A DNA stretch of 33,821 bases from positions 1 to 33,821 of the forward strand of contig CALVYJ010000002.1 of NCBI GenBank assembly GCA_944372075.1. The letters run 5' to 3'. The stretch comes from an uncultured Clostridia bacterium. GTDB lineage: Bacteria > Bacillota > Clostridia > Christensenellales > Borkfalkiaceae. The notes under the pieces were generated by a model. It ran no database searches and was not told where the DNA came from. It worked only from the letters and a program-made list of their open reading frames with translations. The position numbers were made by a program, and so were the translations under genes. Positions 2,928 to 24,446 of this stretch are shown piece after piece; position 1 is the stretch's first letter; each line of letters opens with the position of its first letter.

Positions 2928-3019
2928 CTATTTATAAAAAATTTTATTAAGGGAAAAAATTTCCGCGCGGATTAAGTTAAAATTTATAAAAAGCGTTGGA
3001 AAGAAGGGAGGAGGGAAAT

Positions 3020-6000
3020 ATGAAGGCAACAATTATAAGAAACAGACTGGCGGCGATTGTATGTATTGCTCTGTTGTTCTTGGGTAGTATGGTGTTTTCG
3101 GTCGTATTGGCGGCACCGCCTGCGGATTGGCAGGGGGAAAATATGCTTACATCGGAGAGCGAATACGATGCGAACGGCTGGTTGGTTACGGAAGGCTGGA
3201 CGGCGGATGGCGGTGGGTTTTCGGTCTATAATTTTGGTGTATCTACACAATTTCAACTAATCAATTCGACAAAAATTGATTTGACAAAGCCTTTCCGGTT
3301 TCAAATGTATTTTAACGGAAGCGGGAACGTGGGCGGAATAAATCTTGTGCCGGAGCTGGAGATGTTCAAAGGTACGGATTTTACCGATGTAAAAGAAAAT
3401 GAGAATTATAAAGGAACGGATATGCGCAATCATGGTTCGCTGTTTCCGTTTGCGGGGTATTTGACGGCACCCAATACGTGGGTTGTATCCGGAGGGTTGG
3501 ACAATTCGGAGAGTGGCAACCCGTTTAATATTTCGGCAGCGAAAGACATGCCCGCGGATGTAGATTGGAGCAAGAATTTTACGACGGTAGAAATGTATGT
3601 GGGTACAGATTCTGCAAAGGCGGTTCCGGACGGCGATGTTTCCTGGATCAAAGTCAACGGGGAAGAGATCGTTTATGAAGTACCGCTTACGTTGACGCGA
3701 GCGGATTTTGCAGATGACTTTGCGTATTTGAACATTCAATACAATGCGGTCGGTGCGGCGACGGATGTTGTTTTCAGTGCTATTGAGCAGGAAGATATCA
3801 GTCGAGAAGCGAGGTTGCCTTATATCGGCGCCGTGGAGGATCCCTGCACGGTAGTTTATACGGCGCAAGATTTGGCGGACAAACAGGGATATACTTTCTC
3901 TGTTCGTCCGAACACGACGGCGGCGGAAAAAATCGAATATTACGGTGCTGACGGAACGTGGAAGGCTGTCGATGCGAAATACATAGACGGTGAAGTCGAA
4001 ACGGAAAACTCTGTATCGATCGGATATTCTTACACGGTGTTGCCTTCCTTTTTTATGGAAAACTATGCAGAGATTTATCGCAGCGGGCTGACGACGTTGT
4101 TTAGAGTGACATATGAAGGCGGTGACGCCGTTACGGGGAGTGCCTATGCAATGATCGGATACCGGTCTTTTAACGCGCCTGTTTTTGAGGGAGACGGATA
4201 TGCGATCGTTGATGAGGGAAGCGCTTTGCAGGATATTGTTTTCAAGGTCGATCAAGAGGAAGGGGTCCCTTATGATGCGGACGATGTTTCGCTGGAGGTA
4301 ACGGATCATCCGAATTTGGCGTACAGCGCTCTTTCAGCCGAGGATTATTCGGTATCTTTTGCGGACGGAAAATATACGATCACATTGTATAAAGAATTTA
4401 TACAGAAGCAACAGGAAAGCGGTTCGCCGTATTTGTTCCGTTTCCTGCGCGTTAAAATAGGAATGGACGTGCTGACATACAGAATACAGTTCAAAGATGC
4501 GTCGGACGGTTGGGTAGTTGTAGATGAGCGGTTGGCAGAGGGTAGTGAAGTTCGGGCCGAAAACGGATATTTATCCTTCGAACTGGGACAATATGTGGAA
4601 TCGGCGACGGATTTTGCGGGATCGGGTATTTTCTACAATCGTCCGTTTGGGCAGGCAGACGATTATACGATTGCTTTTGAAATGGATTACCCGTACTATA
4701 CGTGTTGGGCGCAATTTATAATAAGCGATTCGCCTTTCAATGCGCAATACGCATCGCATATGAGTCCCGCAAAGATGCATATGTTGCTTCGCGGTTATGG
4801 TTCTACGCCCGCTAATTTCCCTTCGGCTCACGGTTTGATCGGGTTCAAAACAGGTGCGCAGGTAGATATAAGCGACGTCTATACCCTACGCAATAAGGCA
4901 CTCGTGGAGATACATGTAGGGAAGACGGCGGAAGAAGGATATTATAAAATCAACGGAAAGCTGATTGATACTCCCAATTTTACGCAGAGTGATTTCCCTG
5001 ACGGACTTTATCTCAGTATGCTGTGGAACAATACAAACGGAGAAAATACGGAAGATGTGAGCATTCAGAATAAAATTTCTGTAACGACGGTCAGTTCCGT
5101 AGTCAACGGAGTATATCTCAAATCTGCACGTACGGATGATGTGATGTCCTATTCTTTGAAATCCGGTGAGGATATTGTTGTAGAATTGGGCAATGTAAAG
5201 AGCGGTGTTGAGGTTTGGCAAGGCGAAAGCGAACTCGGAGAAAATGATTTTTCCTATGAAAGTTCTTCGGGTAAACTTACGATCAAGGATTCGTATCTGA
5301 GCAGCCTTTCTTTTGCCACGGAATATGTCTTTAATGTCATAGAAGAAGGAAACGGCGGAACGAGTTTAACGTTTGGCACGAAAGTGGAAGGGAAAGGAAA
5401 TATTCCCATGCAGTCGTTTTCTTTTGCGGCGCCCGCGGATCTCAAATTTGATTTGAGCGGAAGCGTTACCGAGCTTATTCTTGACGCGGCGATAGTCGAT
5501 GCATCCGATTATACGGTAAACGGAAACTCGTTGACGCTGAAGAAGGAATATTTGAGTTCTCTTAAAACTGGCAAGTATGTGTTTTATGCAAACGTAGGCA
5601 GTGCTTACGATGTAGTGCGGGTAGTTATCGGATATTCTTCTGACGAAACGGGCATTATAGTGGGCGACAATTACACTTTGCAGACAGATGAGGACGGAAA
5701 CATTGTTTTAGGCGGCGGTGCGGCATTCCAGTTGCACGGCACAAAAGATCTGACGGCAGGTTTTTCTTTGACGTTGCAATCGTTGTATGCGGCAAAATAT
5801 TTTGAAGACGGATTGTATAGCGACGGCGCGGCGTTCGATATCGTATTTGACGATTTGAACAGCGGAACGAAAATTGCATATACATTGTTTGCGAATTTTG
5901 ATGAAAGCATGGAAGATAAAGCGTGGGTCACGGAGCGAATTTGCGTATATGGTGCAGACGGTACTTTGCTTGCGAGTACGTCCGACCGCAAACTGACGGT

Positions 6001-6298
6001 CAAGTTGAGCGAAGGCATTTCGATCGATTTCAAAGTAACCGATACTGAGTTTGTGGCAACGATCGGTGATCAAAGAGCTTCGACGTTGGCATTGCCGGAG
6101 ATGGATGTCAAGAGCGTCGCCGTGGCGGTAGAGAGTAACGAGCACATGTTCGGCTTGATAAAAACGGCGGCCGAGCAGACAGACGGTGAAAAAACAGGTT
6201 GCGGAGGGATCGTTTCGGCGAACGTGGTTTTGCCCGGAATGGCGTTGACGATGCTGTGCGCGTGTATGTTTTTGGCAAAAAAACGCAGTGCAAAATAA
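3020..6298 (+). CDS. Large secreted surface protein A, membrane-tailed, probable glycan binder
   Basis: The protein has 1092 residues. An N-terminal signal peptide is followed by AAPPADW (cleavage near residue 31). The body is long and beta-rich, with segments like concanavalin/laminin-G-type domains (about 45-250 and 490-690). Short modules near the C-terminal half carry the pattern DYTVNG-xLTLKKEYL-xxL-xxGKYVF, resembling X2-type beta-sandwich modules of carbohydrate-active proteins. The C-terminus has Cys1061 in TGCGG, a hydrophobic segment and the basic end KKRSAK, the form of a surface-sorting or anchoring signal. ATG at 3020 follows GGAGGAGGG; an in-frame TTG at 2996 is rejected because it would extend the signal peptide with charged residues. 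It is the first gene of half-operon A and paralogous in plan to 16432-19638. A substrate-binding role is inferred; no catalytic motif was recognised. Confidence 0.75.
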   Translation: MKATIIRNRLAAIVCIALLFLGSMVFSVVLAAPPADWQGENMLTSESEYDANGWLVTEGWTADGGGFSVYNFGVSTQFQLINSTKIDLTKPFRFQMYFNGSGNVGGINLVPELEMFKGTDFTDVKENENYKGTDMRNHGSLFPFAGYLTAPNTWVVSGGLDNSESGNPFNISAAKDMPADVDWSKNFTTVEMYVGTDSAKAVPDGDVSWIKVNGEEIVYEVPLTLTRADFADDFAYLNIQYNAVGAATDVVFSAIEQEDISREARLPYIGAVEDPCTVVYTAQDLADKQGYTFSVRPNTTAAEKIEYYGADGTWKAVDAKYIDGEVETENSVSIGYSYTVLPSFFMENYAEIYRSGLTTLFRVTYEGGDAVTGSAYAMIGYRSFNAPVFEGDGYAIVDEGSALQDIVFKVDQEEGVPYDADDVSLEVTDHPNLAYSALSAEDYSVSFADGKYTITLYKEFIQKQQESGSPYLFRFLRVKIGMDVLTYRIQFKDASDGWVVVDERLAEGSEVRAENGYLSFELGQYVESATDFAGSGIFYNRPFGQADDYTIAFEMDYPYYTCWAQFIISDSPFNAQYASHMSPAKMHMLLRGYGSTPANFPSAHGLIGFKTGAQVDISDVYTLRNKALVEIHVGKTAEEGYYKINGKLIDTPNFTQSDFPDGLYLSMLWNNTNGENTEDVSIQNKISVTTVSSVVNGVYLKSARTDDVMSYSLKSGEDIVVELGNVKSGVEVWQGESELGENDFSYESSSGKLTIKDSYLSSLSFATEYVFNVIEEGNGGTSLTFGTKVEGKGNIPMQSFSFAAPADLKFDLSGSVTELILDAAIVDASDYTVNGNSLTLKKEYLSSLKTGKYVFYANVGSAYDVVRVVIGYSSDETGIIVGDNYTLQTDEDGNIVLGGGAAFQLHGTKDLTAGFSLTLQSLYAAKYFEDGLYSDGAAFDIVFDDLNSGTKIAYTLFANFDESMEDKAWVTERICVYGADGTLLASTSDRKLTVKLSEGISIDFKVTDTEFVATIGDQRASTLALPEMDVKSVAVAVESNEHMFGLIKTAAEQTDGEKTGCGGIVSANVVLPGMALTMLCACMFLAKKRSAK

Positions 6299-6394: not shown

Positions 6395-8428
6395 ATGCCG
6401 ATCAATAAAATAAAAAGGTTGCCGCTCATAATGTCGATCGTCTTGTTCGCCATATTTCTTGCGGGAATCGTATTCAGTTGTATTTTTACCGCGCTTCGGA
6501 ACGAAAAATCGGAATTTAGCGCCGATATTTCTTACTATGCGGGGAATATCGGTCAGATGTATGAGCATGAGGACATCTCTTATCTCGGAACATTGGACGG
6601 GAGGGTCGTTGCGTTTGACAAAACGGGCGAAAAACTCTGGGAGAACGTGAGCGGGGAGGAAGATAAGTCCGCCGTACGGGTTATTTCGGCGGAGGGGAAC
6701 CGCATTTACGCAGCTTATTCAAATTGCAGGATCGTCGTTTTTGACAGCATTTCGGGAGAAATTGTCAATGTGTATTTGGCCCGCAGCGCAAGCGATATAC
6801 AGATTATTCCGGAGGCGCTGAAGTTCTGTCGGGATTCGGAATGGTTTGCGGTGTGCGGTGCGTATGGGCAAAGGCAGGCGATCGCTCTGTTTGAAACGAG
6901 TGCAAAAGGGACGATGCAGACTCCGCAACGTATGCAAGACGATATGATCTGTGAGGCGGCAAACATTGAATGTTTTGCCTTTGGCGACAAAGCGGATATA
7001 TATTATGCAAATTCAACGGGGCGTATTTATCGGGTATCGGCGGATAATTTTACTTCTGCGAAGCTGGTAGGAAAAACCGAGAGCGGAAATGCGCTGAAAG
7101 CATTGGCGGGGACGGAAGAGAACGGTTTTATCGGCGTGGATGACGGCGGCATACTGTATACGTTTGACGACGAATGGAACGTTGCGGAAAAAAAAGATTT
7201 ACATACGGATATTTCCACTGCGATTGAATGCGGGGATGATTTTCTCTGCAAATCTCCGAACGGCGGCGTATTTTTAATTAAGACGGAGACAAAGAAGATA
7301 GCGTTTCGGATTGAAACGGATGCGGACGCATTGATTTTGTTTTCGTCGTTGCAGATGTTTGCGGTTTCGTCCGAGGGGAAGATTTCTTTCTATGATGTAA
7401 AATTAGCCGGGCGGATAGAGACATATTCCGCGTTGGTATGGGTCGGAGCCGTTGCGGGCGCGCTCGCGTGTTTGGCGGGTATCTGTTGCGTATTGAATGT
7501 TACGCAAAACGGCAGCGAAAAATTCAGGGCGTTTTTTGCGGGAGTCGGAAGAGCATTTTGGAAAAATCGTCTGGTTTATTTTAGTTTGATCCCGGTGGTG
7601 GCTGTGATCGGCGTATTCTGTTACGTGCCGATGGTATGGAGCATTATTCTGTCGTTTTGGGACTATTTGCCCGGGGTGCGTTCGGTATGGGTAGGATTTG
7701 AAAATTTCAAATTGGTTGTACAGACGCAAAGTTTTTGGCAATCGTGCATTCCGATGTTCGTATTTCTTTTGGCGGATCTGATAAAGGCGCTGGTGCCGCC
7801 TATTGTTTTTGCGGAATGTTTGATTGCGATAAAGAGGAAGATGTTTTCGTTTTGGGCGCGGTGTCTGTTGTTTATACCGGGAATATTGCCCGGGGTTGCT
7901 ACGACGTTGCTGTGGATTAACGGAATATTCGGTGAGTACGGACTTGTCAATCAAGTGGCATCGATATTTGTACCGGAATGGGTATCGTTTAACTTTTTGT
8001 CGAGATCGTCCACATCGCTGGCGTCCATAATAATGTTCGGGTTGCCTTGGGTGGGTTCCTATCTTATTTTTTACGGGGCGATCATGGGTTTGCCGACGTC
8101 GATGTATGAGGCGGCGAAACTGGACGGATGCGGATGGATCAAACGTATTTTTTCTTTGGATCTGCCTCTCATCTTGCCGCAGATCAAATATATTGTGATC
8201 ACTACTTTCATTGCCTCGGTGCAAAGTTATACCAATATGTATATAGTATCCAACGGCAGTTTGCCTATGGCAAACGAATTAGGGATCGGAACGCCGGCTT
8301 ATCATATGTATTATGAACTGATGCACAACATGAATTATGGTACGGCAAGCGCGATGGGTGTATTTTTGTTCCTGTTTCTGTTGGTCGCGACGATCATCAA
8401 TTTTCGCATGCAGTCGGATAAATCCTGA
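6395..8428 (+). CDS. Sugar ABC transporter permease (MalF type) with fused extracellular beta-propeller-like domain
   Basis: The protein has 677 residues, about twice the usual MalF-type length. After one N-terminal membrane helix (about 10-33), residues about 40-340 form a soluble beta-rich domain with repeated VVAFD.TGE / IVVFDSISGE strands like PQQ/WD40-type propeller blades. A second helix (about 345-370) leads to a standard binding-protein-dependent permease core. The EAA loop starts at residue 572 (EAAKLDGCGW) and would contact the ATPase. By topology the propeller faces outside. ATG at 6395 is chosen for its AAGAAGGG site and its position just before helix 1; the upstream TTG at 6302 is unlikely. 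It pairs with the next gene as a heterodimeric importer. No ATPase gene is nearby. Confidence 0.85.
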   Translation: MPINKIKRLPLIMSIVLFAIFLAGIVFSCIFTALRNEKSEFSADISYYAGNIGQMYEHEDISYLGTLDGRVVAFDKTGEKLWENVSGEEDKSAVRVISAEGNRIYAAYSNCRIVVFDSISGEIVNVYLARSASDIQIIPEALKFCRDSEWFAVCGAYGQRQAIALFETSAKGTMQTPQRMQDDMICEAANIECFAFGDKADIYYANSTGRIYRVSADNFTSAKLVGKTESGNALKALAGTEENGFIGVDDGGILYTFDDEWNVAEKKDLHTDISTAIECGDDFLCKSPNGGVFLIKTETKKIAFRIETDADALILFSSLQMFAVSSEGKISFYDVKLAGRIETYSALVWVGAVAGALACLAGICCVLNVTQNGSEKFRAFFAGVGRAFWKNRLVYFSLIPVVAVIGVFCYVPMVWSIILSFWDYLPGVRSVWVGFENFKLVVQTQSFWQSCIPMFVFLLADLIKALVPPIVFAECLIAIKRKMFSFWARCLLFIPGILPGVATTLLWINGIFGEYGLVNQVASIFVPEWVSFNFLSRSSTSLASIIMFGLPWVGSYLIFYGAIMGLPTSMYEAAKLDGCGWIKRIFSLDLPLILPQIKYIVITTFIASVQSYTNMYIVSNGSLPMANELGIGTPAYHMYYELMHNMNYGTASAMGVFLFLFLLVATIINFRMQSDKS

Positions 8429-8442
8429 CGGGAGGCAAAAAG

Positions 8443-9315
8443 TTGAGAAGTGTAAAAAGAGCGGAGAACAATGTTCGCGGCAGGTGCTCTGCAATGGATA
8501 TCGAGAGCAAATTTCCGCAGATTATTCTGATCGTTTTTATGGTTTTGCAGTTGGCTTTGGCGCTTTTGCCGATTTTTATTACCGTAAATCTTTCTTTTAA
8601 GGATGCCGTCGGTATTCAGGCTACGACAGTCTGGTCTTTTCCGCGAACCTGGCTGTTCAGCAATTACGCGAAAGCGTTTGACGGTATGTTCGGATATGAA
8701 TTGAATTCGGTCTTTATTGTAACGGTTACAACGGTTCTGGTAATATTTATATCCTGTTACATAGCGTACCTGTTTGTGCGCAAAAATTTCCCGTTAAAGA
8801 GCGTACTTTTTTTTCTTATTATTCTGCCGATGCTTATTCCTTCGGTTATCACTCTTACGCCATCGTATCTTGTGGTCTTCAATTTAGGATTGAAGGGGAA
8901 CTGGCCAGGACTGATTTTATATTATGTTGCGGGATCGCAAATTGCCAATATTTTTATGTTGCGGGTATTTTTGAACCAGCAACCCGGAGAGTTATACGAG
9001 GCGGCGCGCATAGACGGGGACGGGGATATCGGTATTTTTTTCCATTTATGTCTGCCTCTATCGTATCCGATCATGATGGTGCAGGCGATCGGGATTTTCG
9101 GAGGACTGTATAACGATTATTTATGGCCGCTTTTGATGTTTAACGGCAGCAGCAATTCTACGCTGATGCCCGTATTGCAGCAAGTTTCCGACCGTATGGC
9201 GGACGGATCGAAATATGCGGCATATCTGATCAGCGGCATCCCGTTGGTGATCACGACGGTTATCAGTCTGAAATTTTTTGTCAACGGTGAATTTGCTTCC
9301 GGTTTGAAGATTTAA
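8443..9315 (+). CDS. Sugar ABC transporter permease (MalG type), A
   Basis: This 290-residue, six-helix permease of the carbohydrate uptake 1 family is partner of the preceding propeller-fused subunit. The EAA loop starts at residue 186 (EAARIDGDGD) and is followed by the conserved LPLSYPI. The C-terminus GEFASGLKI matches the closing residues of the paralogue in half B. The TTG at 8443 is preferred because GGAGG lies at ideal spacing and the resulting N-terminus has a length like the paralogue; ATG at 8494 would remove the basic N-terminus and has a weak ribosome site. It starts 14 bp after the previous gene. Confidence 0.9.
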   Translation: MRSVKRAENNVRGRCSAMDIESKFPQIILIVFMVLQLALALLPIFITVNLSFKDAVGIQATTVWSFPRTWLFSNYAKAFDGMFGYELNSVFIVTVTTVLVIFISCYIAYLFVRKNFPLKSVLFFLIILPMLIPSVITLTPSYLVVFNLGLKGNWPGLILYYVAGSQIANIFMLRVFLNQQPGELYEAARIDGDGDIGIFFHLCLPLSYPIMMVQAIGIFGGLYNDYLWPLLMFNGSSNSTLMPVLQQVSDRMADGSKYAAYLISGIPLVITTVISLKFFVNGEFASGLKI

Positions 9316-9337: not shown

Positions 9338-11089
9338 ATGAATAAGGCAGTAAAGGCGATAATGACCGCGATGTTATCTGTTTGTTTTCTTATGCCGGCG
9401 GCGTGTAACGGCGGACAAGAGCAGGAAAGCGGCAATACTTTGACGGGAAACATTGAATTTCTCGTACCCATGGCGAATGTAGACAATGCGGCGTTGCAGG
9501 CTATGGCGGACGCCTATCAAGACATAAACCGCGGGGTGAGCGTTAAAATTATCGAAAACAACGGCAACGGATATGCGGAATTGGTACGGAACTGTGTAGC
9601 CGGAGTAAAAGAAGACGTTATTCATATCGTTCGGATCAGTCAGATTTCGCAGTATTACGGCACGGACAGGGTTATTGATTTTTCCGATTATCTGGAAGAG
9701 GAAAACGATTATGCAGAGGGCAGCCCGTCGTATGACGGAACGTGGAAGAGCGTTTTGGAGCAAGACGCGTACCCGCTGGAAGGGAAGGCATATACGATTC
9801 CCGCATTGAGTTATGAATCAAACTATACGGTATGTTTTTACGATAAACGGGCGATGGAGGATTTGAAAGGCGATGCCGATTATGTACCTGAAACGTGGCA
9901 AGATTTGATCGATCTTTTGCAGGCGGCAAAGGAGGACGGGTATCTTTCTCCTCTGGGGCTTGGTTTTACGGGATCGAGTTGTTCGGGAATTTTTATGGGC
10001 TGGTTGATCAAGATGTATGCGGATCAGTATTTCCGTGATTTTACGGACAAAGCGCATTCGCAGGCAGGGGATTACAGTTATATTGCGGCGGATAAAGATT
10101 GGAATTATGAATTGAGCAAGAACGATCCGGATTTTGACCGTAACGATGTTTATACCAGCAATCTGAACCGCGTTATCGATACTTTTTTTAACGACGCTTC
10201 GTTTAATATTGAATCTGCGCGCTATGCAGACATGATGAAAAATTTTCGAGAGCTTTCGCAGTATGCGAGCAGCGCAATGACGGACGAACGTTCCGCAATT
10301 CTCGGCCTGGATGAAACCGCGAACTATTGGAATGACCAAGAGGGAGTAGGCGGAAGTGCGTCCGGATCGAGTTTATTGCGAAAAAATGTTTTTTTGCGTC
10401 CTGCCCGTTTGGATTCCGTGCTCGATTACATCACCCGCTATGCTTTGGACGATGTAAAAAATAACAACAACAACGTCGCAAAAATCATATCCGACCGATT
10501 TGGCTGGTTTGAACTTCCCGCGATGCCGAAAGGGGAGGGTGCAGGCGCTCCGGCGGCCGATACCGTTCGTTCTCTCGGCGGGCCGGTCAACGAACTCGGC
10601 ATTATCAACAACGGCAACAATAAACAGGTGGAAGCGGCGGTGGATTTTCTGAAATTTGTGCTTTCTCCGCAGGGGCAGAAGATCCGGTACGATACGTATG
10701 TTGCCAACGGTTATACGGCGGTCATGCCCTCTTTGGTAAAAGATTGTCAGGTCGATCCCCGCATTGATCTTACGACGGGCCGTTCGTATATGAGCGGCTG
10801 TGAACGCAATCCGATCAACATATTTACGTTGGGATACGGCGACGGGGATATTCGGGTAAGCGGCGGAGGCACGGCAACATTGAACAATGAGGTCGGCTCA
10901 TTATACAGCGATTATTTCTTGAACGGAAAGAGTTGGGAATCCACGGCGGCGGCCATTCAGGGTGCGATCGAAGGAGCTTTCGGACAATGGGCGGAATACA
11001 GGGGGTTAAAGTATTCGGAATATTCGAGTGAAACAATTTATTCAGCGACGAACGGTATGAAAGAAAACCCTGTGAAGGATATTCAATGA
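9338..11089 (+). CDS. Sugar ABC transporter substrate-binding lipoprotein, A
   Basis: This is a 583-residue lipoprotein with a lipobox at Cys23 (LMPAAC). It has the plan of family-1 extracellular solute-binding proteins but is longer than the usual 400-450 residues, which often goes with oligosaccharide ligands. Near the C-terminal third it has GWFELPAMPKGEGAGAPAAD, closely matched in the paralogue at 22664-24397, and later VDFLKFVLSPQGQ, typical of the family. AAGGAG precedes the ATG. Genes for both permeases lie directly upstream. It probably captures the degradation product of the polymer attacked by the GH enzymes of the locus. Confidence 0.9.
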   Translation: MNKAVKAIMTAMLSVCFLMPAACNGGQEQESGNTLTGNIEFLVPMANVDNAALQAMADAYQDINRGVSVKIIENNGNGYAELVRNCVAGVKEDVIHIVRISQISQYYGTDRVIDFSDYLEEENDYAEGSPSYDGTWKSVLEQDAYPLEGKAYTIPALSYESNYTVCFYDKRAMEDLKGDADYVPETWQDLIDLLQAAKEDGYLSPLGLGFTGSSCSGIFMGWLIKMYADQYFRDFTDKAHSQAGDYSYIAADKDWNYELSKNDPDFDRNDVYTSNLNRVIDTFFNDASFNIESARYADMMKNFRELSQYASSAMTDERSAILGLDETANYWNDQEGVGGSASGSSLLRKNVFLRPARLDSVLDYITRYALDDVKNNNNNVAKIISDRFGWFELPAMPKGEGAGAPAADTVRSLGGPVNELGIINNGNNKQVEAAVDFLKFVLSPQGQKIRYDTYVANGYTAVMPSLVKDCQVDPRIDLTTGRSYMSGCERNPINIFTLGYGDGDIRVSGGGTATLNNEVGSLYSDYFLNGKSWESTAAAIQGAIEGAFGQWAEYRGLKYSEYSSETIYSATNGMKENPVKDIQ

Positions 11090-11221: not shown

Positions 11222-12217
11222 ATGGTAGGAAGAAATGAGGTCGCAAAGTTAGCGGGTGTTGCTCCGTCCACGGTTTCCAATGTCATAAACAATACGAGGT
11301 ATGTCAGTGAAGATATTCGGAAAAAGGTATTGTGGGCGATAAACGAGCTCGGCTATGAGCCGAATTACGTTGCCAAAAGTCTGCGCAGCCGCCGCACAAA
11401 GCAGATCATAGTGTTTATCAGTGATTTGCACAATACCTATTATGCGGATCTTTGCCAGGGAATTATCGGCACGCTGACATTGCACGGTTATACGGTTGCG
11501 ATTGCGGTGGTCAGCGATCCGTCTGTCGATTATTATAAAGAATATTTTTCGCGGCAGGTGGACGGCATAATCAATTTATCGCATATATTTTGTGCGGAAG
11601 ATCTTTTTCAGAAGTTTCTCGGGCATAAGGTGGCGATGGTCAACTGTCGTCCGTATGATGAAATCGGTTCCGTATCCATCGATTACTTGGGTGCGGTTTC
11701 GAAGTTTGTGGATAAACTTGTTGCGCGAGGCAGGAAATGCGTTGGCTTTATCAACGGCGGAACGATGGAGAGCGTCGCCGGAGATTCCCGTTATTACGGA
11801 TTGAAAGCGTACTTACAGGGCAAGGGCGTTCAATTTGACGGAAACTTGTTGATCAACGGAAACAATCAGTATGCGAACATGGTGGAATTCGGCTATGAGT
11901 CTATGAAGATTCTGATGCAACGCTCGCCTTGTTTGGACGGGGTATTTTGCATCAACGATATGATCGCTTTCGGCGCGTGGACGTATGCGGCGGAGGCGGG
12001 AAAGGTGATCCCGCGGGATATTTCCATTTGCGGATGCGACAATATTTTCTTTTCGGATTTTGCGGGCAGAAAGATATCGACGATCGCCATAGACAAGGTG
12101 GATTACGGGATACGATGTGCCAAATTATTGTTGGCACAATTAAACGAAGACGGCGAACTTGCCTCCACCATGAGGCAGGATATTTATGCCGAATTTATTG
12201 ACAGGGGTTCAGTTTGA
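11222..12217 (+). CDS. LacI-family transcriptional regulator, A
   Basis: The protein has 331 residues. An N-terminal helix-turn-helix (residues 4-23, with recognition segment APSTVSNVIN) is followed by the hinge YEPNYVAKSLR with the usual intercalating Leu. A periplasmic-binding-protein-like effector domain follows; its motifs include DGVFCINDMIAFGA and DISICGCDNI. The ribosome site is GGAAGGAAG. It has its own promoter and probably binds the AAACACGTGTTT palindromes, with a sugar from the imported glycan as effector; this is inference from gene position. It shares recognition-helix residues Ala-Pro with the second LacI (26403-27401), so the two may compete for or share operators. Confidence 0.93.
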   Translation: MVGRNEVAKLAGVAPSTVSNVINNTRYVSEDIRKKVLWAINELGYEPNYVAKSLRSRRTKQIIVFISDLHNTYYADLCQGIIGTLTLHGYTVAIAVVSDPSVDYYKEYFSRQVDGIINLSHIFCAEDLFQKFLGHKVAMVNCRPYDEIGSVSIDYLGAVSKFVDKLVARGRKCVGFINGGTMESVAGDSRYYGLKAYLQGKGVQFDGNLLINGNNQYANMVEFGYESMKILMQRSPCLDGVFCINDMIAFGAWTYAAEAGKVIPRDISICGCDNIFFSDFAGRKISTIAIDKVDYGIRCAKLLLAQLNEDGELASTMRQDIYAEFIDRGSV

Positions 12218-12224
12218 GATAGAG

Positions 12225-14099
12225 ATGGTCTTAGATTTTTCATTTATTTATGGCGGGATCCGTTATTTTGGGCGCGATTTGCCTTTTATCAATGCAGGCG
12301 GTGAAGAAATTTGCCGTCTGCATTCTTTAATGATCACGCGCAGGCGTCGATATTACGAAAGCGGAGAAGAACGTTGTTATTGGTTTGAAAATGCGGGCGA
12401 GGCGGACAGTTTGCTATTGGAAGGCATCTGTGATGCCGACGGAGTTGTTCCCGTTCCCGACAACGCTTTTCACGGCGGGGAAGCCGGCAGCGTTGTCAGG
12501 CTTTTTGGGGCGAAGGGTTCGGATTGGAGCCGTTTGGAGTTTACGCCCTTTTCAAGCGATCTCGTGCAAGGCGAATCGTCGTATTTTTCCGGTTCCGGAG
12601 GCCGTCCTTCGCAGTCGGTATTGCCCTTCTTTGATATCAACGGCGGTATGGAAGGATATATATTGGCGATCGGTTGGACGGGACAATGGTTTGCGAAGTT
12701 TTCGGGCGAACAGGGCGGAGTGCATTTCAGATGCGGTGTGGAAAATGTAAGTTTGCGCCTGCGCCCCGGGGAAAAGATACGCACGTGCTCCGTCTTTGTG
12801 CTTCCCTACAAAAACGGGCAGAACAACGGGCATAATGCGTTTCGCAGGGCGGTTTTGTCGGCTTTGGGGATGCAGGCGGGGGATTTTGCTCCTTTTTCTT
12901 TGTCTTTGTGGGGCGGAACGACGTCTGCATATATGACGGAAGCGATCAAAAGAGCGCGGGACGCGGGATTTTCGGCGGAATACGTTTGGATCGACGCCGG
13001 ATGGCAGGGGGAGAGCTCAAACGATTGTCCGGACGAATTTACGGACGAATGGTCGAAACACACGGGGGATTGGCGGATCAATAAACGCATACATCCGGAC
13101 GGTTTGCAGAGCGTGGCGCGGGAGGCAAAGGAGAACGGAAGCAAACTGCTGCTTTGGTTTGAGCCGGAACGCGCGCATAGCGATACGCCTGTGGTTCATG
13201 AACATCCGGAATGGTTTTTCCGCACCGAACAGGATGAATTTCGCAATCTTTTGCGTTTGGGAGATCCGCAGGCATATGCTTATATCCAGGAAACCCTTTG
13301 CTCGCTGATAAAAAAATTGGAGGTGGCGTGTTATCGGCAGGATATGAATATGGACCCGTTGCCGCTTTGGGAAAAATATGAGGGCGAGGGGCGAAAAGGT
13401 TTTTTGCAGATCGAGCATGTGCAGGCATTGTATGCGTTGTGGGACACATTGAAAACGGAATTCCCGAACTTGATTATCGACAACTGCGCCAGCGGAGGCA
13501 GGCGTCTGGACTGGGAAACTTCCAAACGATCCGTTCCGCTTTGGAGAAGCGATTTTCCGTGCGCGTTTGATGCTCCGTCGGAAGGCGTTCAGATTCACGG
13601 GATCGGGCTTTCCTGGTGGCTGCCGGTCAGCGGAACGGGAACGAAAGCCGAATTGACGGATTTATATGACTTCAGAAGCGCATATGCGGCGGCGCTGAAC
13701 GTGCGCTTTTTTACGTATGAACGCACGGCTGCGCCGTATGCGGAAAAAATTGCCCGATGGATCGACGAATATAAAAAGATCCGATCTTTTTTTACGGAAG
13801 ACTATTATCCGGTATTCGGTTTTGACGGATCGGACAGCGCATGGGGCGGGTGGCAATACCATAGCCCGAAAAAAGGTGCAGGGATCCTCTGTGCGTTCAG
13901 ACGCCCGGAATGCCCCGACGACGGCATGACCGTCGCGTTGGAAGGGTTGGAAAAAGAGGCGACCTATCGCTTCGTGTCTTTTGACGCGCTGCCGCCCGTT
14001 CAATACGGCGGGCAAACGTTGACGGAGAAAGGTTTTCCGGTTTGTATTCCCGAAAAGAAATCCAGCAGACTGTTTTTATATAAAAAAATAAGCGGCTAA
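12225..14099 (+). CDS. GH36-type alpha-galactosidase
   Basis: This 624-residue protein has no signal peptide, so it is probably cytoplasmic. It has the GH36 plan of an N-terminal beta domain and a TIM barrel. Visible barrel motifs are YVWIDAGWQG, LLLWFEPER, the nucleophile Asp373 in CYRQDMNMDP, the DNCASGGRRLDWE segment and the acid/base Asp443 in LWRSDFPCAFDA. The Lys-Trp usually found before the nucleophile is Arg-Gln here, which marks a less common subgroup, so alpha-galactosidase versus alpha-N-acetylgalactosaminidase or another alpha-glycosidase is open. ATG at 12225 is chosen because FIYGG is near the usual family N-terminus; an in-frame ATG at 12186 overlapping the lacI gene, with AGGCAGGA upstream, is a real alternative. 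It is translationally close-coupled to lacI. Confidence 0.88.
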   Translation: MVLDFSFIYGGIRYFGRDLPFINAGGEEICRLHSLMITRRRRYYESGEERCYWFENAGEADSLLLEGICDADGVVPVPDNAFHGGEAGSVVRLFGAKGSDWSRLEFTPFSSDLVQGESSYFSGSGGRPSQSVLPFFDINGGMEGYILAIGWTGQWFAKFSGEQGGVHFRCGVENVSLRLRPGEKIRTCSVFVLPYKNGQNNGHNAFRRAVLSALGMQAGDFAPFSLSLWGGTTSAYMTEAIKRARDAGFSAEYVWIDAGWQGESSNDCPDEFTDEWSKHTGDWRINKRIHPDGLQSVAREAKENGSKLLLWFEPERAHSDTPVVHEHPEWFFRTEQDEFRNLLRLGDPQAYAYIQETLCSLIKKLEVACYRQDMNMDPLPLWEKYEGEGRKGFLQIEHVQALYALWDTLKTEFPNLIIDNCASGGRRLDWETSKRSVPLWRSDFPCAFDAPSEGVQIHGIGLSWWLPVSGTGTKAELTDLYDFRSAYAAALNVRFFTYERTAAPYAEKIARWIDEYKKIRSFFTEDYYPVFGFDGSDSAWGGWQYHSPKKGAGILCAFRRPECPDDGMTVALEGLEKEATYRFVSFDALPPVQYGGQTLTEKGFPVCIPEKKSSRLFLYKKISG

Positions 14100-14258: not shown

Positions 14259-14270
14259 AAACTCGTGTTT
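14259..14270. promoter_or_regulatory. Operator O4 (AAACTCGTGTTT), imperfect
   Basis: The same palindrome with one central change, in an AGAAA..TTTCC context like O3. Its centre is 79 bp from that of O3. It is probably an auxiliary weaker site. Confidence 0.65.
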
Positions 14271-14315
14271 CCGCGCAAAAAACATGCAACTATACAGGAA
14301 AATGCTGGAGGAATT

Positions 14316-16286
14316 ATGCGGCAAGAGAGGCATAGCAAAGCGAGCAGAATTTTGAGTTGTATCATGGGAGCGGTGCTGATGTTAAGTTTTACGGGGTGTC
14401 AGGTGCAGAACAAAGGGCAAGAGGAAAAGCCGGGGCAGGGCGGAGAAACGGAAGATATTTTGAGTGAGGATACAGAGTGCGCATCCGAGGCGGCGGTTGC
14501 GCTTCTCGGGGCGACGGACGCATTGGGCAGAAAGATTGTGCCGCTGGCATCTTTTAACGCATCCAGGAAGGTAGGCATTTTTTATTTTTTATGGACGGGA
14601 GAGCATGAGAGCACGGGATCGCGGTCGGACGGGCATATGTTGGACATTTCGCGGTTGCCGGAAGCGGAGTTGCGGTCGGCATCCGATATAGGCCGGCATC
14701 ATTATTGGGGTGAGCCGCTGTACGGTTATTATCGTTCGGATGATGAGTGGGTATTTCGGAAGCATCTGGAGCTGTTGACGCTGGCGGGGGTAGATTATCT
14801 TGTATTCGATTATACCAATTCCGATTATGATGCGGCGGCGGGAAAACCTGTCAATTATTATAAGGATGTGACGGACGCATTGTTTCCCGTTGCAGTCGAG
14901 ATGGTTGAACAGGGGTGGAACATTCCGAAGTTTGTTTTTATGCTGAACAAATCGTCGGATCAAACGGTTCGATGTTTGTATGAGGATTATTATACGGTCG
15001 AGGAATACGAACCGCTGTGGTTTCGGGCGGCGGACGGTCTGGGACAGGAACTGAACAGGGAAGGAAAGCCCTGGGTCATTTGCGGCGACACGACGTATTT
15101 GGATCCTGCGATCCGGGATAAGTTTTACATTCGTCAAACGCAGTGGCCGAACGAAGCGGCGTCTTCGGACGGTATATGGGATTATCAATACAAAGAAAAC
15201 GGTTTTCCGTGGATGAGTTGGGAGCGGGTCAAAAACGGTACTCGCAAACAATACTGTCACAACGGGATCATGTCGGTGTCCATTGCGCAGCATGTCAACG
15301 GAGCGTTCAGCGATTCGGTACTGCTGGAAAACGGATACGGTCTGAATTACGGCAGGGGCTTTTCGTCGGCGGATAACGGAGGGTATGGCAGTAACAACAA
15401 AGAGCGTGTGGCATACGGAACAAATTTTCAGGAACAGTGGGATTATGCCATAGCGGAAGCGCAGAAAGGGAATGTAAACAATGTTTTTGTTACCGGATGG
15501 AACGAGTGGGTCGCGCAGAAGCAACCGGCGGGCAACGGGAGGCCGGACAGCTATTTTGTAGATTTATACAACGATGAATTTTCGCGCGACGCAGAGATGA
15601 GCGCGGGGCCGTTGGGCGACAATTATTATATGCAGCTGGTTCGCAACATACGTACGTTCAAGGGGATTCCGGCGTCATCCGCGGCTACGGAGCTGATACA
15701 AAAACAGATAGACATAGACGGCGGACTGTCGCAGTGGGAAGGCATCGCGGGGTTTGCGGATTTCAGGGGCGATACGGCGCCGCGCGATCATGCAAGCTCC
15801 AACGACACGTTGCCGAAGTATAAGGAAACGAGCGGCAGGAACGATATTGTGAACGTGCGGGCGGTATATGATGCGGAGAACCTTACGTTTCTGATCACGT
15901 GCGCGAAAGATATAACGGAATATGAAACCGGCGACAAGACGTGGATGAATATTTTATTGGCGGCGGACGAGGGAAGCTGGAACGGATACCGATACGCAGT
16001 CAACCGAAAGGTCGGCGAAGCGGTCGGTTCGATCGAAAAACTCGGAGAAAACGGTGAAGGGCAGGAATTGTGCGGTTGGGCGGATATTCGCGTGAACGGG
16101 AAGTATCTTACCGTACGGATCCCGCGCTCCGCCGTCGGTATGGAAGGGGATTTTACCTTACAATTCAAGGTTTGCGATCATGTGACGGGGTATACGGACA
16201 TTCTGAATTATTACATAGAAGGCGATTGTGCGCCGATCGGACGGTTCAATTATACCGCTTCGGGTAAAGCAGACGTTAACAGATAG
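14316..16286 (+). CDS. GH99/GH71-like lipoprotein glycosidase with C-terminal carbohydrate-binding-like domain, copy 1
   Basis: The protein has 656 residues. The lipobox FTGC at Cys28 is followed by a polar linker. The main domain begins with VGIFYFLWTGEH, has HHYWGEPLYGYYRSDDEWVFRKH and LAGVDYLVFDYTN, and ends near TGWNEWVAQKQ (Trp395-Trp398). The Trp-Asn-Glu-Trp box with the barrel-like beta strands is typical of the GH99/GH71/WbsX-type TIM-barrel group, in which GH99 cuts alpha-mannosides. A C-terminal beta domain (about 490-656) resembles CBM9/DOMON-type sugar-binding domains. ATG at 14316 follows GGAGG; an earlier in-frame GTG at 14265 lies inside operator O4 and is rejected. It is the first gene after the second operator-flanked promoter. 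The exact linkage cut is unknown, and catalytic residues are not assigned with certainty. Confidence 0.7.
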   Translation: MRQERHSKASRILSCIMGAVLMLSFTGCQVQNKGQEEKPGQGGETEDILSEDTECASEAAVALLGATDALGRKIVPLASFNASRKVGIFYFLWTGEHESTGSRSDGHMLDISRLPEAELRSASDIGRHHYWGEPLYGYYRSDDEWVFRKHLELLTLAGVDYLVFDYTNSDYDAAAGKPVNYYKDVTDALFPVAVEMVEQGWNIPKFVFMLNKSSDQTVRCLYEDYYTVEEYEPLWFRAADGLGQELNREGKPWVICGDTTYLDPAIRDKFYIRQTQWPNEAASSDGIWDYQYKENGFPWMSWERVKNGTRKQYCHNGIMSVSIAQHVNGAFSDSVLLENGYGLNYGRGFSSADNGGYGSNNKERVAYGTNFQEQWDYAIAEAQKGNVNNVFVTGWNEWVAQKQPAGNGRPDSYFVDLYNDEFSRDAEMSAGPLGDNYYMQLVRNIRTFKGIPASSAATELIQKQIDIDGGLSQWEGIAGFADFRGDTAPRDHASSNDTLPKYKETSGRNDIVNVRAVYDAENLTFLITCAKDITEYETGDKTWMNILLAADEGSWNGYRYAVNRKVGEAVGSIEKLGENGEGQELCGWADIRVNGKYLTVRIPRSAVGMEGDFTLQFKVCDHVTGYTDILNYYIEGDCAPIGRFNYTASGKADVNR

Positions 16287-16431: not shown

Positions 16432-19400
16432 ATGAAACAGAGAAGCAAATGGATCACATGCCTGATTCTCGGGTTCATGATGATTCTGTCCGTGTTCGGC
16501 TACGGGATGCTTGCGCTTGCGGCAGAACCTGCGGGACACGGCAAACAGGCGGACGCGCCGGCAGAATCTTTCGATTCCAACGGTTGGTTCACGCAGAATG
16601 CGTATAATGCCATGGCGGATAAAAATGACGTACTCGCAAGCGGGCCTGCATTGATAGCGCAGCCGGGCGCCGGATATCTCGGCTATATTGCCCCCGAAGC
16701 CGCGGGCGGGTATACGAAGATGGCGTCTTTTGCGCAGGGCAAGCTGCTCAACGACAAAGTTTTGCCCGTATCGCAGGCAATCAATTTTCAGATCGGTATC
16801 ATGCCGAGCGCAGGCGGACACGCGCAGAGGCTCGTTCATTTTTTTGATAAAGAAAAGGTCGGCACGTATATCGGCGTCAACGAAAACAATACGCCGTTTG
16901 CCATCATGTTCAGCGCGCTGGCGGATACCGTTGAGATTTTCGTAAACGGCACAAAGCAGACTCTTGCCAACGATGCGCAGGTATTCCCGTTGGATACTTC
17001 CAATACGATGGTGCTTACGGAAACCTATGTCATGCATTATGTCAGTATCGTCATGGGTGCGGAAAGCTCGCAGGTCTATATCGACGGCGAAAAGGTCGCG
17101 GATCTGACGGATCTTAAGACGTCGAATTATTCATCGGGCAATGTGCAAATGGTCTTGGATTTCTGGGGAGGCGGCGGCGATCCGTGGGTTGCGTTCAATG
17201 CGTTGGATCCGTTTGTGCTCGTCAACGCTTCGTATAAAGATAAGATCAACGTCAAGACGTTTGAAGAGGATCTTTCCTTTACTTTAAGCAAAGCGGTTGC
17301 GGGTATAAGCGTCGTGAATGCGGCGGCGGAGACGGTCGCGCTCGAAAAAGATAAGGATTACACCGTAGACGGAAACACGGTAACCGTGGCGAATGAATTT
17401 CTGACCGAAAAAGCGGAAGGGTATTTCGATGTCGATACGGTATTCACCTTTACGTCTGCAGAGGAGCCCGCTCGCACGGCAACGTACGGATACGAAGTGT
17501 TGTACTATGCGCCTCCGGTATATGAGCAGGCCGAGACGACGATCATCAAAACGGCGCTTACGGAGGACGTGACCTATGCGGTGGCGTATGAAAACGGCGA
17601 AGAAACGTACGGCATGACCGTAAACGGCGGAGCGCTTGCGGCGGAAAACTATACGGCAACCTTTGAAGAGAGCGGCAAGATCAACGTAACGCTCAAAAAA
17701 GAGTATCTGAACGGACTGTCGCATGGGGTATATACGTTCACGCTGTCTACCCTTGCGGGAAGCGTAGATCATGTCGTTTACCGCAATGAAAAAGATAATG
17801 AATGGATCGTGAAAGGGAACGGTACGACGGGCGATGAGAGCACGGAAGAGGTCGTCAAGGGAGAAAACGGTTCTTCGACTTTGAACGTCGGTTTTTTGGG
17901 CAATGCCTATTATTCGGAAGCTATCGATGTCAGCAAGCCTGTTTATTTAGAAATGGATTTCAACACGGTGCTTTCCGACCCGAATCCGCACGGCTGGTTT
18001 GCGATCGGATTTACGAACGACGTGACGCAGGTGGATAAACTCAACGAATCCAATCCGACGGACAGGCTGACCTTCCTGTATGGGCACGCCAAAGGCGAAT
18101 TCCAATGCGCGGGTGTGCTTGCCAATGCGCTGATCAAGCCGGAATACATCAATCAGAACGGGCCGCAGCTGTTTGAAATTCGTTTTGCGGAAGCGGATGC
18201 GGAAGGAAACACGGTGCAAGGGCAGGAAACGGAGCTGTATTTTAACGGATACAAGATTTTCGGAACGAATACAAAGAATCAGGCTACGTTTGAAAAGGGA
18301 TGTTTCCTCGGCATTTTTTCCGCGTTGGACGTATTGAATTTTACGACGCGCACGGACGTCACGTCGGCGGCGGCGAACACATACGGGTTGGAATATACGT
18401 TGGGAACGGATGCCGATATCAGCGTGCCGGTGTACAACACGGCGTCGGTTGCGGCGGTGGAATATGCAGGGGAAGCGCTTGCGTCTTCCGATTATACGTT
18501 TGCCGACGGCATACTTACGCTCAAAGGCAGTTATCTTAAAACGATTGCCTATGCCGACACGATGACCTTTACGGTGACCGCGGACAACGGTGTGGAACTG
18601 ACTCTCAACGTGAAAGCGTATTGCGAAGCGGACGCATCCAAAGCAGTGATCGCCAAAGTCGGTGCGGAAGGGGCTGTGTTTGAGAAGGGATTTGACGGGA
18701 AAACCGTTTCCGCGGTGATCGATACGGCGACGTCGCAGAAATTATCCTCGGACGATTACGAGGTATCCGCCGACGGTACGTTGACCGTAGCCAAAGCATA
18801 TTTTACGGAGGAAGGGACGTATTCCTTTGCGGTAGTGACAGACGGCGGCCTGTACTTTGCAATGGCGATCAACCGGTCGTATGAAAATGATTGGGCAAAC
18901 AACCTGGATGTTTCCAACGGAACATATGCTGAGGAAACTTTGACCGTGAAAGGCGAAAGCGATTATCTGTACTCGGAACTGGTGGATCTGACACAGGAAG
19001 AGGGCGTCGCGTATACTCTTACCATTCAGAAGCTCAACGGATATTTCAAAAACGGGCAGGACGGAAGTGCGGACGCATATGTGGCGATCTATTTTTACGA
19101 TATGTTCAGCGGAAATACGGTAACGCTTGCGGTTTATGCGAACGATGAAGAGAGCAGCAGCGCGCAACTGGCGTATGTCAAATTGTATATTCGGGACAAG
19201 GACGGAAAGCAGGTCTATGTAAACAATATGCCCATCGCGGACAATCCGAATTTTTACGATGAAAGCGTGATCGGTGCCAACGTCATTCGGTTTTCGGAGG
19301 ATAACGGCTCGCTGAAAGTAGATTTCAACGATTACAGCATCTATTTGGATCTCGGGGAAACCGATTTGTCCCGTTTACAGATGGGTGTATGTTCTACGGC

Positions 19401-19638
19401 CGATATAGAAGGCGTTAAAAATGAGTTTTCCTTCTCCTTTAAGGTAGAGGAGCAAACGGAAGATCCGGGGACGGATCCGGGGACGGATCCGGGAACGGAA
19501 CCCGGCGGGGATACGGACAAGGAAACGGGCAAAGGCGGATGTTCGGGATCGGCAGGAAGCGTTGCCGCATTGGCGGGAACCGTTCTGCTCGGAGTAGCGG
19601 CGTTTGGTTTGATGCGTAAACGCAGAGGCGAGCGTTAA
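16432..19638 (+). CDS. Large secreted surface protein B, membrane-tailed, probable glycan binder
   Basis: The protein has 1068 residues. The signal peptide ends in GMLALAAEP. The body has alternating laminin-G/concanavalin-like segments and at least four X2-like short modules with the pattern DYTVDGNTVTV-xxEFL-xx-F-TF. A final concanavalin-like segment is followed by a Pro-Gly-Thr-Asp linker (PGTDPGTDPGTEPG). Cys1037 (GGCSG), a hydrophobic helix and RKRRGER form the C-terminus. The Cys is 32 residues from the end, exactly as in surface protein A. GGAGGA precedes the ATG. It sits between the GH99-like gene and the permeases in half-operon B. A polymer-binding role is inferred from modules and context; no catalytic motif was seen. 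Confidence 0.75.
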   Translation: MKQRSKWITCLILGFMMILSVFGYGMLALAAEPAGHGKQADAPAESFDSNGWFTQNAYNAMADKNDVLASGPALIAQPGAGYLGYIAPEAAGGYTKMASFAQGKLLNDKVLPVSQAINFQIGIMPSAGGHAQRLVHFFDKEKVGTYIGVNENNTPFAIMFSALADTVEIFVNGTKQTLANDAQVFPLDTSNTMVLTETYVMHYVSIVMGAESSQVYIDGEKVADLTDLKTSNYSSGNVQMVLDFWGGGGDPWVAFNALDPFVLVNASYKDKINVKTFEEDLSFTLSKAVAGISVVNAAAETVALEKDKDYTVDGNTVTVANEFLTEKAEGYFDVDTVFTFTSAEEPARTATYGYEVLYYAPPVYEQAETTIIKTALTEDVTYAVAYENGEETYGMTVNGGALAAENYTATFEESGKINVTLKKEYLNGLSHGVYTFTLSTLAGSVDHVVYRNEKDNEWIVKGNGTTGDESTEEVVKGENGSSTLNVGFLGNAYYSEAIDVSKPVYLEMDFNTVLSDPNPHGWFAIGFTNDVTQVDKLNESNPTDRLTFLYGHAKGEFQCAGVLANALIKPEYINQNGPQLFEIRFAEADAEGNTVQGQETELYFNGYKIFGTNTKNQATFEKGCFLGIFSALDVLNFTTRTDVTSAAANTYGLEYTLGTDADISVPVYNTASVAAVEYAGEALASSDYTFADGILTLKGSYLKTIAYADTMTFTVTADNGVELTLNVKAYCEADASKAVIAKVGAEGAVFEKGFDGKTVSAVIDTATSQKLSSDDYEVSADGTLTVAKAYFTEEGTYSFAVVTDGGLYFAMAINRSYENDWANNLDVSNGTYAEETLTVKGESDYLYSELVDLTQEEGVAYTLTIQKLNGYFKNGQDGSADAYVAIYFYDMFSGNTVTLAVYANDEESSSAQLAYVKLYIRDKDGKQVYVNNMPIADNPNFYDESVIGANVIRFSEDNGSLKVDFNDYSIYLDLGETDLSRLQMGVCSTADIEGVKNEFSFSFKVEEQTEDPGTDPGTDPGTEPGGDTDKETGKGGCSGSAGSVAALAGTVLLGVAAFGLMRKRRGER

Positions 19639-19689: not shown

Positions 19690-21735
19690 ATGGAAAAAAC
19701 AGGCAGAACCGTATCGTTTTTGTGGCTTGCGTTGGCGTTGTTGGCGCTGACGGGAACGATAGTATTTTCCGTGTTTGCGGGAATTTCGGCGGGTGCGTCG
19801 GGGAAAAGTTTTTCCTCGCCCGTAACATTGGAGGCGGGCGCGGAAAGTCTGGCGGAAGATTCCGATTATGTGGTTATTTCGGACAAAGCGGGCGGCGTGA
19901 AGTGTTATGGGAAGGCGGAGTCGAAGCTGTTGTGGGAGTACGGCAAAGTTGCAAGCGGCGGAGCGACGGCAAAAGCTACGGCGGTTGCTCTGTTTGGGCA
20001 AAAGGCATATGCGTTGTTTGACGATCGTACGATCATGCGTTTTAATGCCGAGACGGGCGAAGCGGAAGGCGTGCTGGAAACCAATTACGTACCCAAGAAA
20101 ATCTATTTTTCTCCGGAGGGAGGAACGTTGTTTGCCGTTTACGGAGAAGTTGGGGCGAAGCGTGACGTATATCTTTTGCGGACGGATTTTGGCGGGACGA
20201 AAGAATCGCCCGCAAGTTACAGGGATTACCCGAAGCTGGACAGCGGGGACTATGCCGTAAGTTCGGGTGGCGTGGAAACGGGTGTACAGGGAATACTGAT
20301 CACGGCGGACGAAAGCATTTATATTGCGTCGGATGCGTACACCGTGCGGTTATTTACGGCAAACGGGATGGCGGACGGTTATCGGGAATTTCCGATCGCG
20401 GCGGAGAAATTGGCGGCATTTTGTGAAACGGACGGCGGTTTTGCCGGATTGGGGCTTGACGGATCGTATTACCGTTTCGACAAAGACTTTGTATGCAAAG
20501 AAAGCACACGCATTGCGCAAGCCTTTACATTTGCCGTAAGTGCGGGAAAGACGCTTTACGGGGCGGACGGTCAATCGGTATTTGCCGTATCGGATAAAGG
20601 GGAGAAGCTGTTTGCCCTTTCTTGTGCAGGGGAGACGCTGTTGTTTGCCGATCAGGACACGTTTGTGTTGTCGGGCGCAGAGTTGCGCTGGCTGACTGCG
20701 GAACAGGCAAGGCAAATTTCCTCGATGGGAGGTCTGTTTGCTGTCTTTTTGCCGTTGGCGATCGTATTCGCTCTGTTTTTGTGTTATGCAGGAGTGAGTG
20801 TTTGGAGACCTTTGCGGGCGCGGGTCAATCATTGGTTTGCTGTCGTCGGAAGGACTGCTGTGCGGCATCGTTTTGCGTATTTGGGGCTTATCCCGACGTT
20901 TGCGCTTTTGGCGGTATTTTATTATTGGCCGATCGTGCGCGGGTTCGGGCTCTCCTTTTTCAATTACAACGGAGTAACGTCGAAATTTGTCGGACTTCAA
21001 AACTTTATCGACGTATTGTACAATACGTTATTTTGGGACTCGGCGCTCACGATGCTGATCCTGCTTGTGACGGATATCGTCAAAGCGATAGTGCCTCCGC
21101 TTTTGTTTGCGGAATTTATTTTGGCGGTGCGCAATAAGCAGTTTTCGTTTATCGTGCGGGTATTGCTGTTTATACCGGGGATTTTGCCCGGAGTGGCGGG
21201 AACGCTTGTTTGGGTCAACGGTATCTTCGGATCGGACAGCTATGGCCTGTTGAACAGTATCTGTTCGATCTTTGTTCCCGGATTTATTCAAACATGGATA
21301 GGGCCGTATCTGGAAACGCGGTCGCTTGTATCCATCATTATGTTTGCGTTTCCGTGGGTCGGATCGTATCTGATTTTTTACGGCGGAGTGATGGGAATAC
21401 CGAAATCTCTGTTTGAAGCGGCGGAGCTCGACGGATGCGGATGGTGGAGGCGGATAGCGACCATAGATCTCCCGCTCATATTTGCGCAGATCAAGTACAT
21501 ATTTATCACCTCGTTCATTGCGTCCGTGCAGGATTACGGTAGGCTGTTCATAACCGATCAGTCGACGGGTCACGGGTTAAAAGTTCCGGCTCTTATCATT
21601 TACGAAAATATTTATAAAGGCGGAAGCGAGCCGAATTATGGTTTATCCAGCGCGATGAGCATGTATCTGTTTGCGTTTTTGCTGGTTGCGACGATTCTCA
21701 ATTTCCGCAAACAGACGGATAAGGAGGCGATGTGA
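19690..21735 (+). CDS. Sugar ABC transporter permease (MalF type) with fused extracellular beta-propeller-like domain, B
   Basis: The protein has 681 residues and is laid out exactly like the 677-residue protein of half A. It has an N-terminal helix, an external beta-rich domain (about 40-350, with blade-like strands such as GGVKCYGKAESKLLWEY and IMRFNAETGEA), a second helix (about 352-375) and the permease core with the EAA loop from residue 576 (EAAELDGCGW). The permease part is much more similar to its paralogue than the propeller part, so the outer domain is diverging faster. AAAGGG precedes the ATG. The stop codon overlaps the start of the next gene (TGATG), implying translational coupling. 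Confidence 0.85.
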   Translation: MEKTGRTVSFLWLALALLALTGTIVFSVFAGISAGASGKSFSSPVTLEAGAESLAEDSDYVVISDKAGGVKCYGKAESKLLWEYGKVASGGATAKATAVALFGQKAYALFDDRTIMRFNAETGEAEGVLETNYVPKKIYFSPEGGTLFAVYGEVGAKRDVYLLRTDFGGTKESPASYRDYPKLDSGDYAVSSGGVETGVQGILITADESIYIASDAYTVRLFTANGMADGYREFPIAAEKLAAFCETDGGFAGLGLDGSYYRFDKDFVCKESTRIAQAFTFAVSAGKTLYGADGQSVFAVSDKGEKLFALSCAGETLLFADQDTFVLSGAELRWLTAEQARQISSMGGLFAVFLPLAIVFALFLCYAGVSVWRPLRARVNHWFAVVGRTAVRHRFAYLGLIPTFALLAVFYYWPIVRGFGLSFFNYNGVTSKFVGLQNFIDVLYNTLFWDSALTMLILLVTDIVKAIVPPLLFAEFILAVRNKQFSFIVRVLLFIPGILPGVAGTLVWVNGIFGSDSYGLLNSICSIFVPGFIQTWIGPYLETRSLVSIIMFAFPWVGSYLIFYGGVMGIPKSLFEAAELDGCGWWRRIATIDLPLIFAQIKYIFITSFIASVQDYGRLFITDQSTGHGLKVPALIIYENIYKGGSEPNYGLSSAMSMYLFAFLLVATILNFRKQTDKEAM

Positions 21736-24430: not shown

Positions 24431-24446
24431 AATAAAAAGGGGAATT

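Follow-up and report, generated by a model that had tools for sequence, protein, structure and literature searches.

A predicted beta-propeller carried by the MalF-type permease in one clade of bacterial sugar importers, and its possible role in binding-protein docking

Among importer permeases, the textbook example of an outside domain is the P2 domain of Escherichia coli MalF, a protein in which the loop between transmembrane helices (TM) 1 and 2 is short. P2 comprises MalF residues 91-271 and contacts MalE (PMC3150292). The type I importers GlnPQ and OpuA also hold an outside domain covalently on the membrane subunit of the importer, and there the linked domain is the binding protein itself (PMC8025302, PMC11065425). 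Here we describe a different arrangement in 33,821 bp of DNA from an uncultured Clostridia bacterium of the Borkfalkiaceae (contig CALVYJ010000002.1 of assembly GCA_944372075.1, positions 1-33,821; this whole stretch is called the window below). The window contains two adjoining sugar-uptake clusters on the + strand, and the long MalF/UgpA-type permease of each (W1 and W2; Table 1) has a large domain fused ahead of its core. Unlike in GlnPQ and OpuA, this domain is a predicted beta-propeller, and the binding lipoprotein is encoded by a gene of its own.

The W1 and W2 open reading frames are both intact, start with ATG at 6395 and 19690, respectively, and have AAGGGTAAT ahead of the start codon. 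Each protein has eight predicted TM helices in the order TM1, a domain of ~300 residues, TM2 and an ordinary six-helix CUT1 core; ~320 residues separate TM1 from TM2, in agreement with a preliminary description of this DNA according to which both MalF-type subunits carry about 300 extra residues between two N-terminal helices. The W2 core matches SugA (best, E 2e-9), UgpA, MalF and AlgM1, the W1 core matches UgpA and MalF, and the NCBIfam UgpA matches of the two proteins have E values of 1e-13 and 2e-16. With Pfam PF00528, W2 scores above the cut-off and W1 slightly under it (23.8 vs 26.4 bits). The EAA loop reads EAAKLDGCGW...DLP in W1 and EAAELDGCGW...DLP in W2, and a strict pattern for this loop is kept in 52 of 57 relatives. 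A partner permease and a binding protein are present in the cluster, and a MalK-type ATPase in the genome. The core, the EAA loop and the surrounding genes all place W1 and W2 among the CUT1 permeases.

They resemble MalF of the E. coli MalFGK2-MalE system in being eight-helix CUT1 permeases that have an additional hairpin at the N terminus and a large outside domain. However, P2 has ~180 residues and lies between MalF TM3 and TM4, the first two core helices, where W1 and W2 have no insertion, whereas in the fused permeases the propeller, of 300-550 residues, precedes the core and is placed between TM1 and TM2; P2 and the propeller showed no relation in sequence. The earlier statement that classical MalF possesses no more than a small periplasmic loop is thus incorrect for P2, but it holds for the TM1-TM2 loop, which is the position used in W1 and W2. 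Permeases of the UgpA/SugA type (UgpABCE, LpqY-SugABC) share the six-helix core but have no large outside domain. The other long permeases of the window's genome (505 and 466 amino acids) have extra helices and no propeller. A 539 amino acid permease at locus L143 (898-2517) carries at its N terminus, ahead of any predicted helix, a stretch resembling InlB-type repeats together with an unknown domain.

An AlphaFold2 model of W2, built with 36 relatives, places strands in seven groups over residues 51-336, with pLDDT (the per-residue confidence score) mostly 80-93 except in the loop 184-197, and with helices flanking both sides. VIA-align superimposes W2 residues 33-339 on a WD40 protein (Z 21.5, 3.5 Å, 274 residues), Foldseek ranks BamB, a chain of the BAM complex, first, and BamB, PQQ, WD40 and designed propellers are recovered from sequence alone with a profile built on 21 ectodomains. 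The W2 ectodomain is therefore confidently modeled as a closed-ring, seven-bladed PQQ/WD40-type beta-propeller with four strands per blade, and, judging from the order of its strands, the two connections to the membrane appear to exit from the same face of the ring. By itself the W1 ectodomain gives weak single-sequence matches to PQQ/BamB/WD40 propellers; against a profile of the relatives' ectodomains it matches at 99.1% probability (E 4e-19; five shuffles gave E 0.16-0.84), and the A5 profile, of which W1 itself is a row, recovers it at 4.5e-81, so W1 very probably shares the W2 domain. The structure prediction called for in the preliminary description, which had noticed blade-like strands, thus does yield a propeller, in W2. 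The likeness to BamB, PQQ-repeat and WD40 propellers lies in the fold, in weak sequence similarity and in a PQQ-like repeat pattern; BamB differs in being a free outer-membrane lipoprotein, and no transporter subunit is among the propeller matches listed. Propeller matches filled the fold-search list, so no transporter chain for the W2 core is among the matches listed there either. The conserved binding and catalytic residues of PQQ-dependent dehydrogenases are absent from the ectodomain columns.

The mean number of lysines plus arginines in 56 relatives is 4.5 in the N-terminal tail and 6.6 in the linker between TM2 and the core, and 1.4 and 1.7 at the two ends of the ectodomain. The EAA loop, cytoplasmic in this permease family, is separated from the propeller by five helices. 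This charge distribution and the helix count strongly support a propeller outside the cell, as had been predicted, and speak against a cytoplasmic one; with Clostridia taken as single-membrane bacteria, outside would mean the cell surface.

All members found of a single branch of importers share the architecture. Two core motifs, scanned against 84,980 species genomes, yielded 65 loci, of which three are distant ordinary permeases; in 62 of the 62 others, a count that describes the clade selected by these motifs and not permeases at large, a domain of the propeller kind precedes the core, in the order TM-domain-TM-core wherever the frame is complete (a few of these loci are cut by contig ends). 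The family search proposed earlier thus found the same fusion throughout the clade, and the binding-protein gene adjoins the permease genes in most relatives. No description of a propeller fused to an importer permease was found in the literature searched, the coverage of which was limited. In a maximum-likelihood tree of the cores, the fused permeases form one group (100/100) separate from the sampled unfused ones, which strongly supports a single origin. The hosts are mostly metagenome-assembled Clostridia from gut and digesters, with Tyzzerella, Bacilli and Oscillospiraceae assemblies of the same kind also present. A class-level sample contained frames of 666-672 amino acids matching the fused profile in four genomes outside the window's family, and a phylum-level sample contained one further fused permease, in another class, whose fusion was confirmed by reading the locus. 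Since most records are metagenome-assembled, misassembly or a functionless accidental fusion might be suspected. The breadth of occurrence refutes this: all 62 clade members are fused, including those from two isolates on record, Pumilibacter intestinalis and P. muris, the single clade is strongly supported and the fold is kept at 15% identity, so that an artefact is almost certainly not the explanation.

The spacing between TM1 and TM2 is 264-345 residues in about half of the clade and 361-548 in the rest. A member of the larger class with 519 residues is predicted to fold as the same propeller plus an inserted helical bundle of ~100 residues (Z 22.0), and the two size classes match each other by profile (96%, E 3.5e-9). 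A stand-alone propeller homolog was considered as the source of the fusion and rejected, as the strong matches in intact frames, in 41 relatives and 398 phylum-level genomes, are fused permeases of 670-710 amino acids; shorter strong matches lie in truncated frames, and a few weak ones (E > 1e-8) in other frames were left aside.

The propeller diverges much faster than the permease to which it is attached, as had been noted for the window. Pairs of ectodomains have a median identity of 15% and pairs of cores one of 45% (19% and 53% between W1 and W2), and the ectodomain value is the lower in 666 of 666 pairs. No ectodomain column is more than 72% conserved, the best are mostly glycine or hydrophobic, and the columns contain no conserved polar cluster or aromatic site across the clade. 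The missing polar site speaks against an enzymatic role. It is also improbable that the propeller itself binds polysaccharide or oligosaccharide, as a lectin or loading site: some propellers are lectins, glycoside hydrolases occur in the gene clusters, and locus-specific substrates might mask a conserved site, but neither an aromatic nor a polar site is conserved and median identity is very low. Rapid divergence is more easily reconciled with a platform that evolves along with its partners than with an enzyme or an invariant sugar site. Among the functions guessed at in the preliminary description, docking of the binding lipoprotein fits best, and holding of the polymer is disfavored by the same missing sites.

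The reading favored here, at about even odds, is that the propeller is a docking platform for the cognate solute-binding lipoprotein, working by analogy like MalF-P2 although differently built. The external segment joining the two additional N-terminal helices has become a predicted seven-bladed propeller, which would stand as a fixed platform beside the channel mouth and hold the binding lipoprotein, and perhaps neighboring surface lipoproteins, near the permease pair. Loaded binding protein could thereby be handed over efficiently, and its docking would set the signal for ATP hydrolysis, as with MalF-P2 in E. coli; hydrolysis itself would fall to the one MalK/MsmX-like ATPase that the genome encodes at another site. 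The binding proteins are consistent with such a partnership. Those of fused loci are 543-758 amino acids long (median 587, n=56) and those of sister loci 479-530 (median 502.5, n=14), with no overlap. An insertion of ~27 residues (253-279 in the W2-system protein, 245-272 in that of W1) accounts for part of the difference; it is found across fused-locus binding proteins, including that of the distant fused genome of another class, is shorter in the large class and is missing from sister loci. These features suggest that binding-protein length and insertion are linked to the propeller. Distances between ectodomains also correlate with those between binding proteins once the core is taken into account (partial r 0.40, p 0.001 for 23 loci; 0.16, p 0.009 for 31 loci).

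Several observations count against docking. The partial correlations are modest and do not single out the binding protein, because the partner permease correlates as highly in the 23-locus set (0.54). The length difference amounts to one phylogenetic contrast, since the fused and sister groups are each a single clade. A trend toward higher conservation on the outer face of the propeller runs in the same direction in three subclades and is not significant (p 0.08-0.14), and, the W2 core being modeled with only moderate confidence, the model does not settle where the propeller stands relative to the channel. Finally, surface lipoproteins are equally constant neighbors in the window's subclade. 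The main rival, rather unlikely in our judgment, is that the propeller is a scaffold tying the importer to surface glycan-binding proteins and hydrolase-like lipoproteins in a surface uptake complex with a role like that of SusCD. Propellers are common protein-protein platforms, BamB, one of the fold matches, being such a platform, and large surface proteins (with CBM_X2, Big_2 or InlB-type repeats) and a second lipoprotein of ~600-660 amino acids recur beside the fused permeases. However, these neighbors vary between subclades while the propeller is constant, and the partial correlation between ectodomain and lipoprotein is weak (0.29, p 0.016). Less probable still is a sensor or gate that regulates transport or signaling according to the state of the cell wall or substrate; the position of the propeller between two helices joined directly to the core would suit it, but the clusters contain no dedicated signaling partner, and their regulators are of the LacI (and AraC-MocA) types.

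The nearest unfused permeases form two groups in the core tree. In one of them, a protein of 139-170 amino acids that combines an Ig-like domain with one helix at the N terminus is encoded directly 5' of the permease. Its Ig-like domain gives weak bMG3/Big_1 matches, and 9 of 10 homologs found in 122 genomes adjoin one of the permeases cataloged in the analysis; it is possibly a separate importer subunit. A helix-borne outside domain beside this type of permease is thus supplied by a separate gene in the sister group and by propeller fusion in the clade of W1 and W2. It is conceivable, though somewhat short of probable, that an outside domain on the permease, whether propeller or one-helix Ig-like subunit, serves generally as a docking module, has arisen more than once and is paired with a specially extended binding protein, in an undescribed Gram-positive importer subfamily. 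Should an unrelated domain elsewhere on the permease do a job comparable to that of P2, docking modules would be shown to evolve repeatedly. As the hosts of the clade are uncultured Clostridia of gut and digesters together with two named Pumilibacter isolates, the architecture bears on their glycan uptake, and it provides a sequence marker for these importer systems.

The fused permease of each cluster in the window is accompanied by a CBM_X2 surface protein, a MalG-type permease, two lipoproteins (one solute-binding, one of unknown family) and a LacI regulator, and a GH36-like alpha-galactosidase is additionally present in that of W1 (Table 1).

Table 1. Positions of the features discussed (window numbering unless a locus is named)
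Feature	Position	Strand	Remarks
W1, fused CUT1 permease subunit, 677 aa	6395..8428	+	TM1 residues 12-30, propeller ~38-340, TM2 348-366, six-TM core, EAA loop 572-591
W1 ectodomain (predicted propeller)	6497..7408	+	Profile match to relatives; weak single-sequence matches to PQQ/BamB/WD40 propellers
W2, fused CUT1 permease subunit, 681 aa	19690..21735	+	W1-like layout, TM 8-26 and 349-367, EAA loop 576-595
W2 ectodomain, predicted seven-bladed propeller, strands 51-336 of protein	19798..20709	+	AlphaFold2; PDB comparison
W1 partner permease, MalG/UgpE type	8443..9315	+	Pfam PF00528 E 9e-16
W2 partner permease, MalG/UgpE type	21732..22631	+	Pfam PF00528 E 1e-11
W1-system solute-binding lipoprotein, 583 aa, with DYSYI... 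insertion	9338..11089	+	SBP_bac_1 E 6e-16
W2-system solute-binding lipoprotein, 577 aa, with DYSYI... insertion	22664..24397	+	SBP_bac_1 E 1e-9
Large surface protein 5' of W1: signal sequence, CBM_X2, C-terminal TM	2996..6298	+	
Large surface protein 5' of W2: CBM_X2, C-terminal TM	16432..19638	+	
W2-cluster lipoprotein, unknown family	24405..26387	+	Slot holds 600-660 aa protein in many relatives of the window's subclade
W1-cluster lipoprotein, unknown family	14265..16286	+	
LacI-type regulator, W1 cluster	11222..12217	+	
GH36-like alpha-galactosidase (Melibiase), W1 cluster	12186..14099	+	
LacI-type regulator, W2 cluster	26403..27401	+	
Small one-helix Ig-like protein, sister loci	L018 2372-3040; L022 2293-2730; L023 2381-2812; L053 7577-7996; L055 8355-8867		Directly upstream of unfused sister permease

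At the C terminus of the two large surface proteins, a Cys/Gly-rich stretch, a helix and a basic tail follow one another, and there is no LPXTG motif; the C-terminal part of one of them weakly matches a myxosortase-dependent family. The two lipoproteins of unknown family (660-673 amino acids) have no Pfam match, and that of the W2 cluster has no PDB match either. The window's genome has a single OB_MalK-type ATPase (L121, G000 contig C8 19602-19781) and 36 BPD_transp_1 matches, which suggests that one MalK/MsmX-like ATPase encoded elsewhere in the genome may be shared among importers. At locus L088, an AraC-type regulator fused to a GFO/IDH/MocA oxidoreductase (11765-13909) adjoins a fused permease of the larger class; by size and position the same slot is filled alike at L090, L091, L093, L095, L100 and L104, the domains having been checked in L088.
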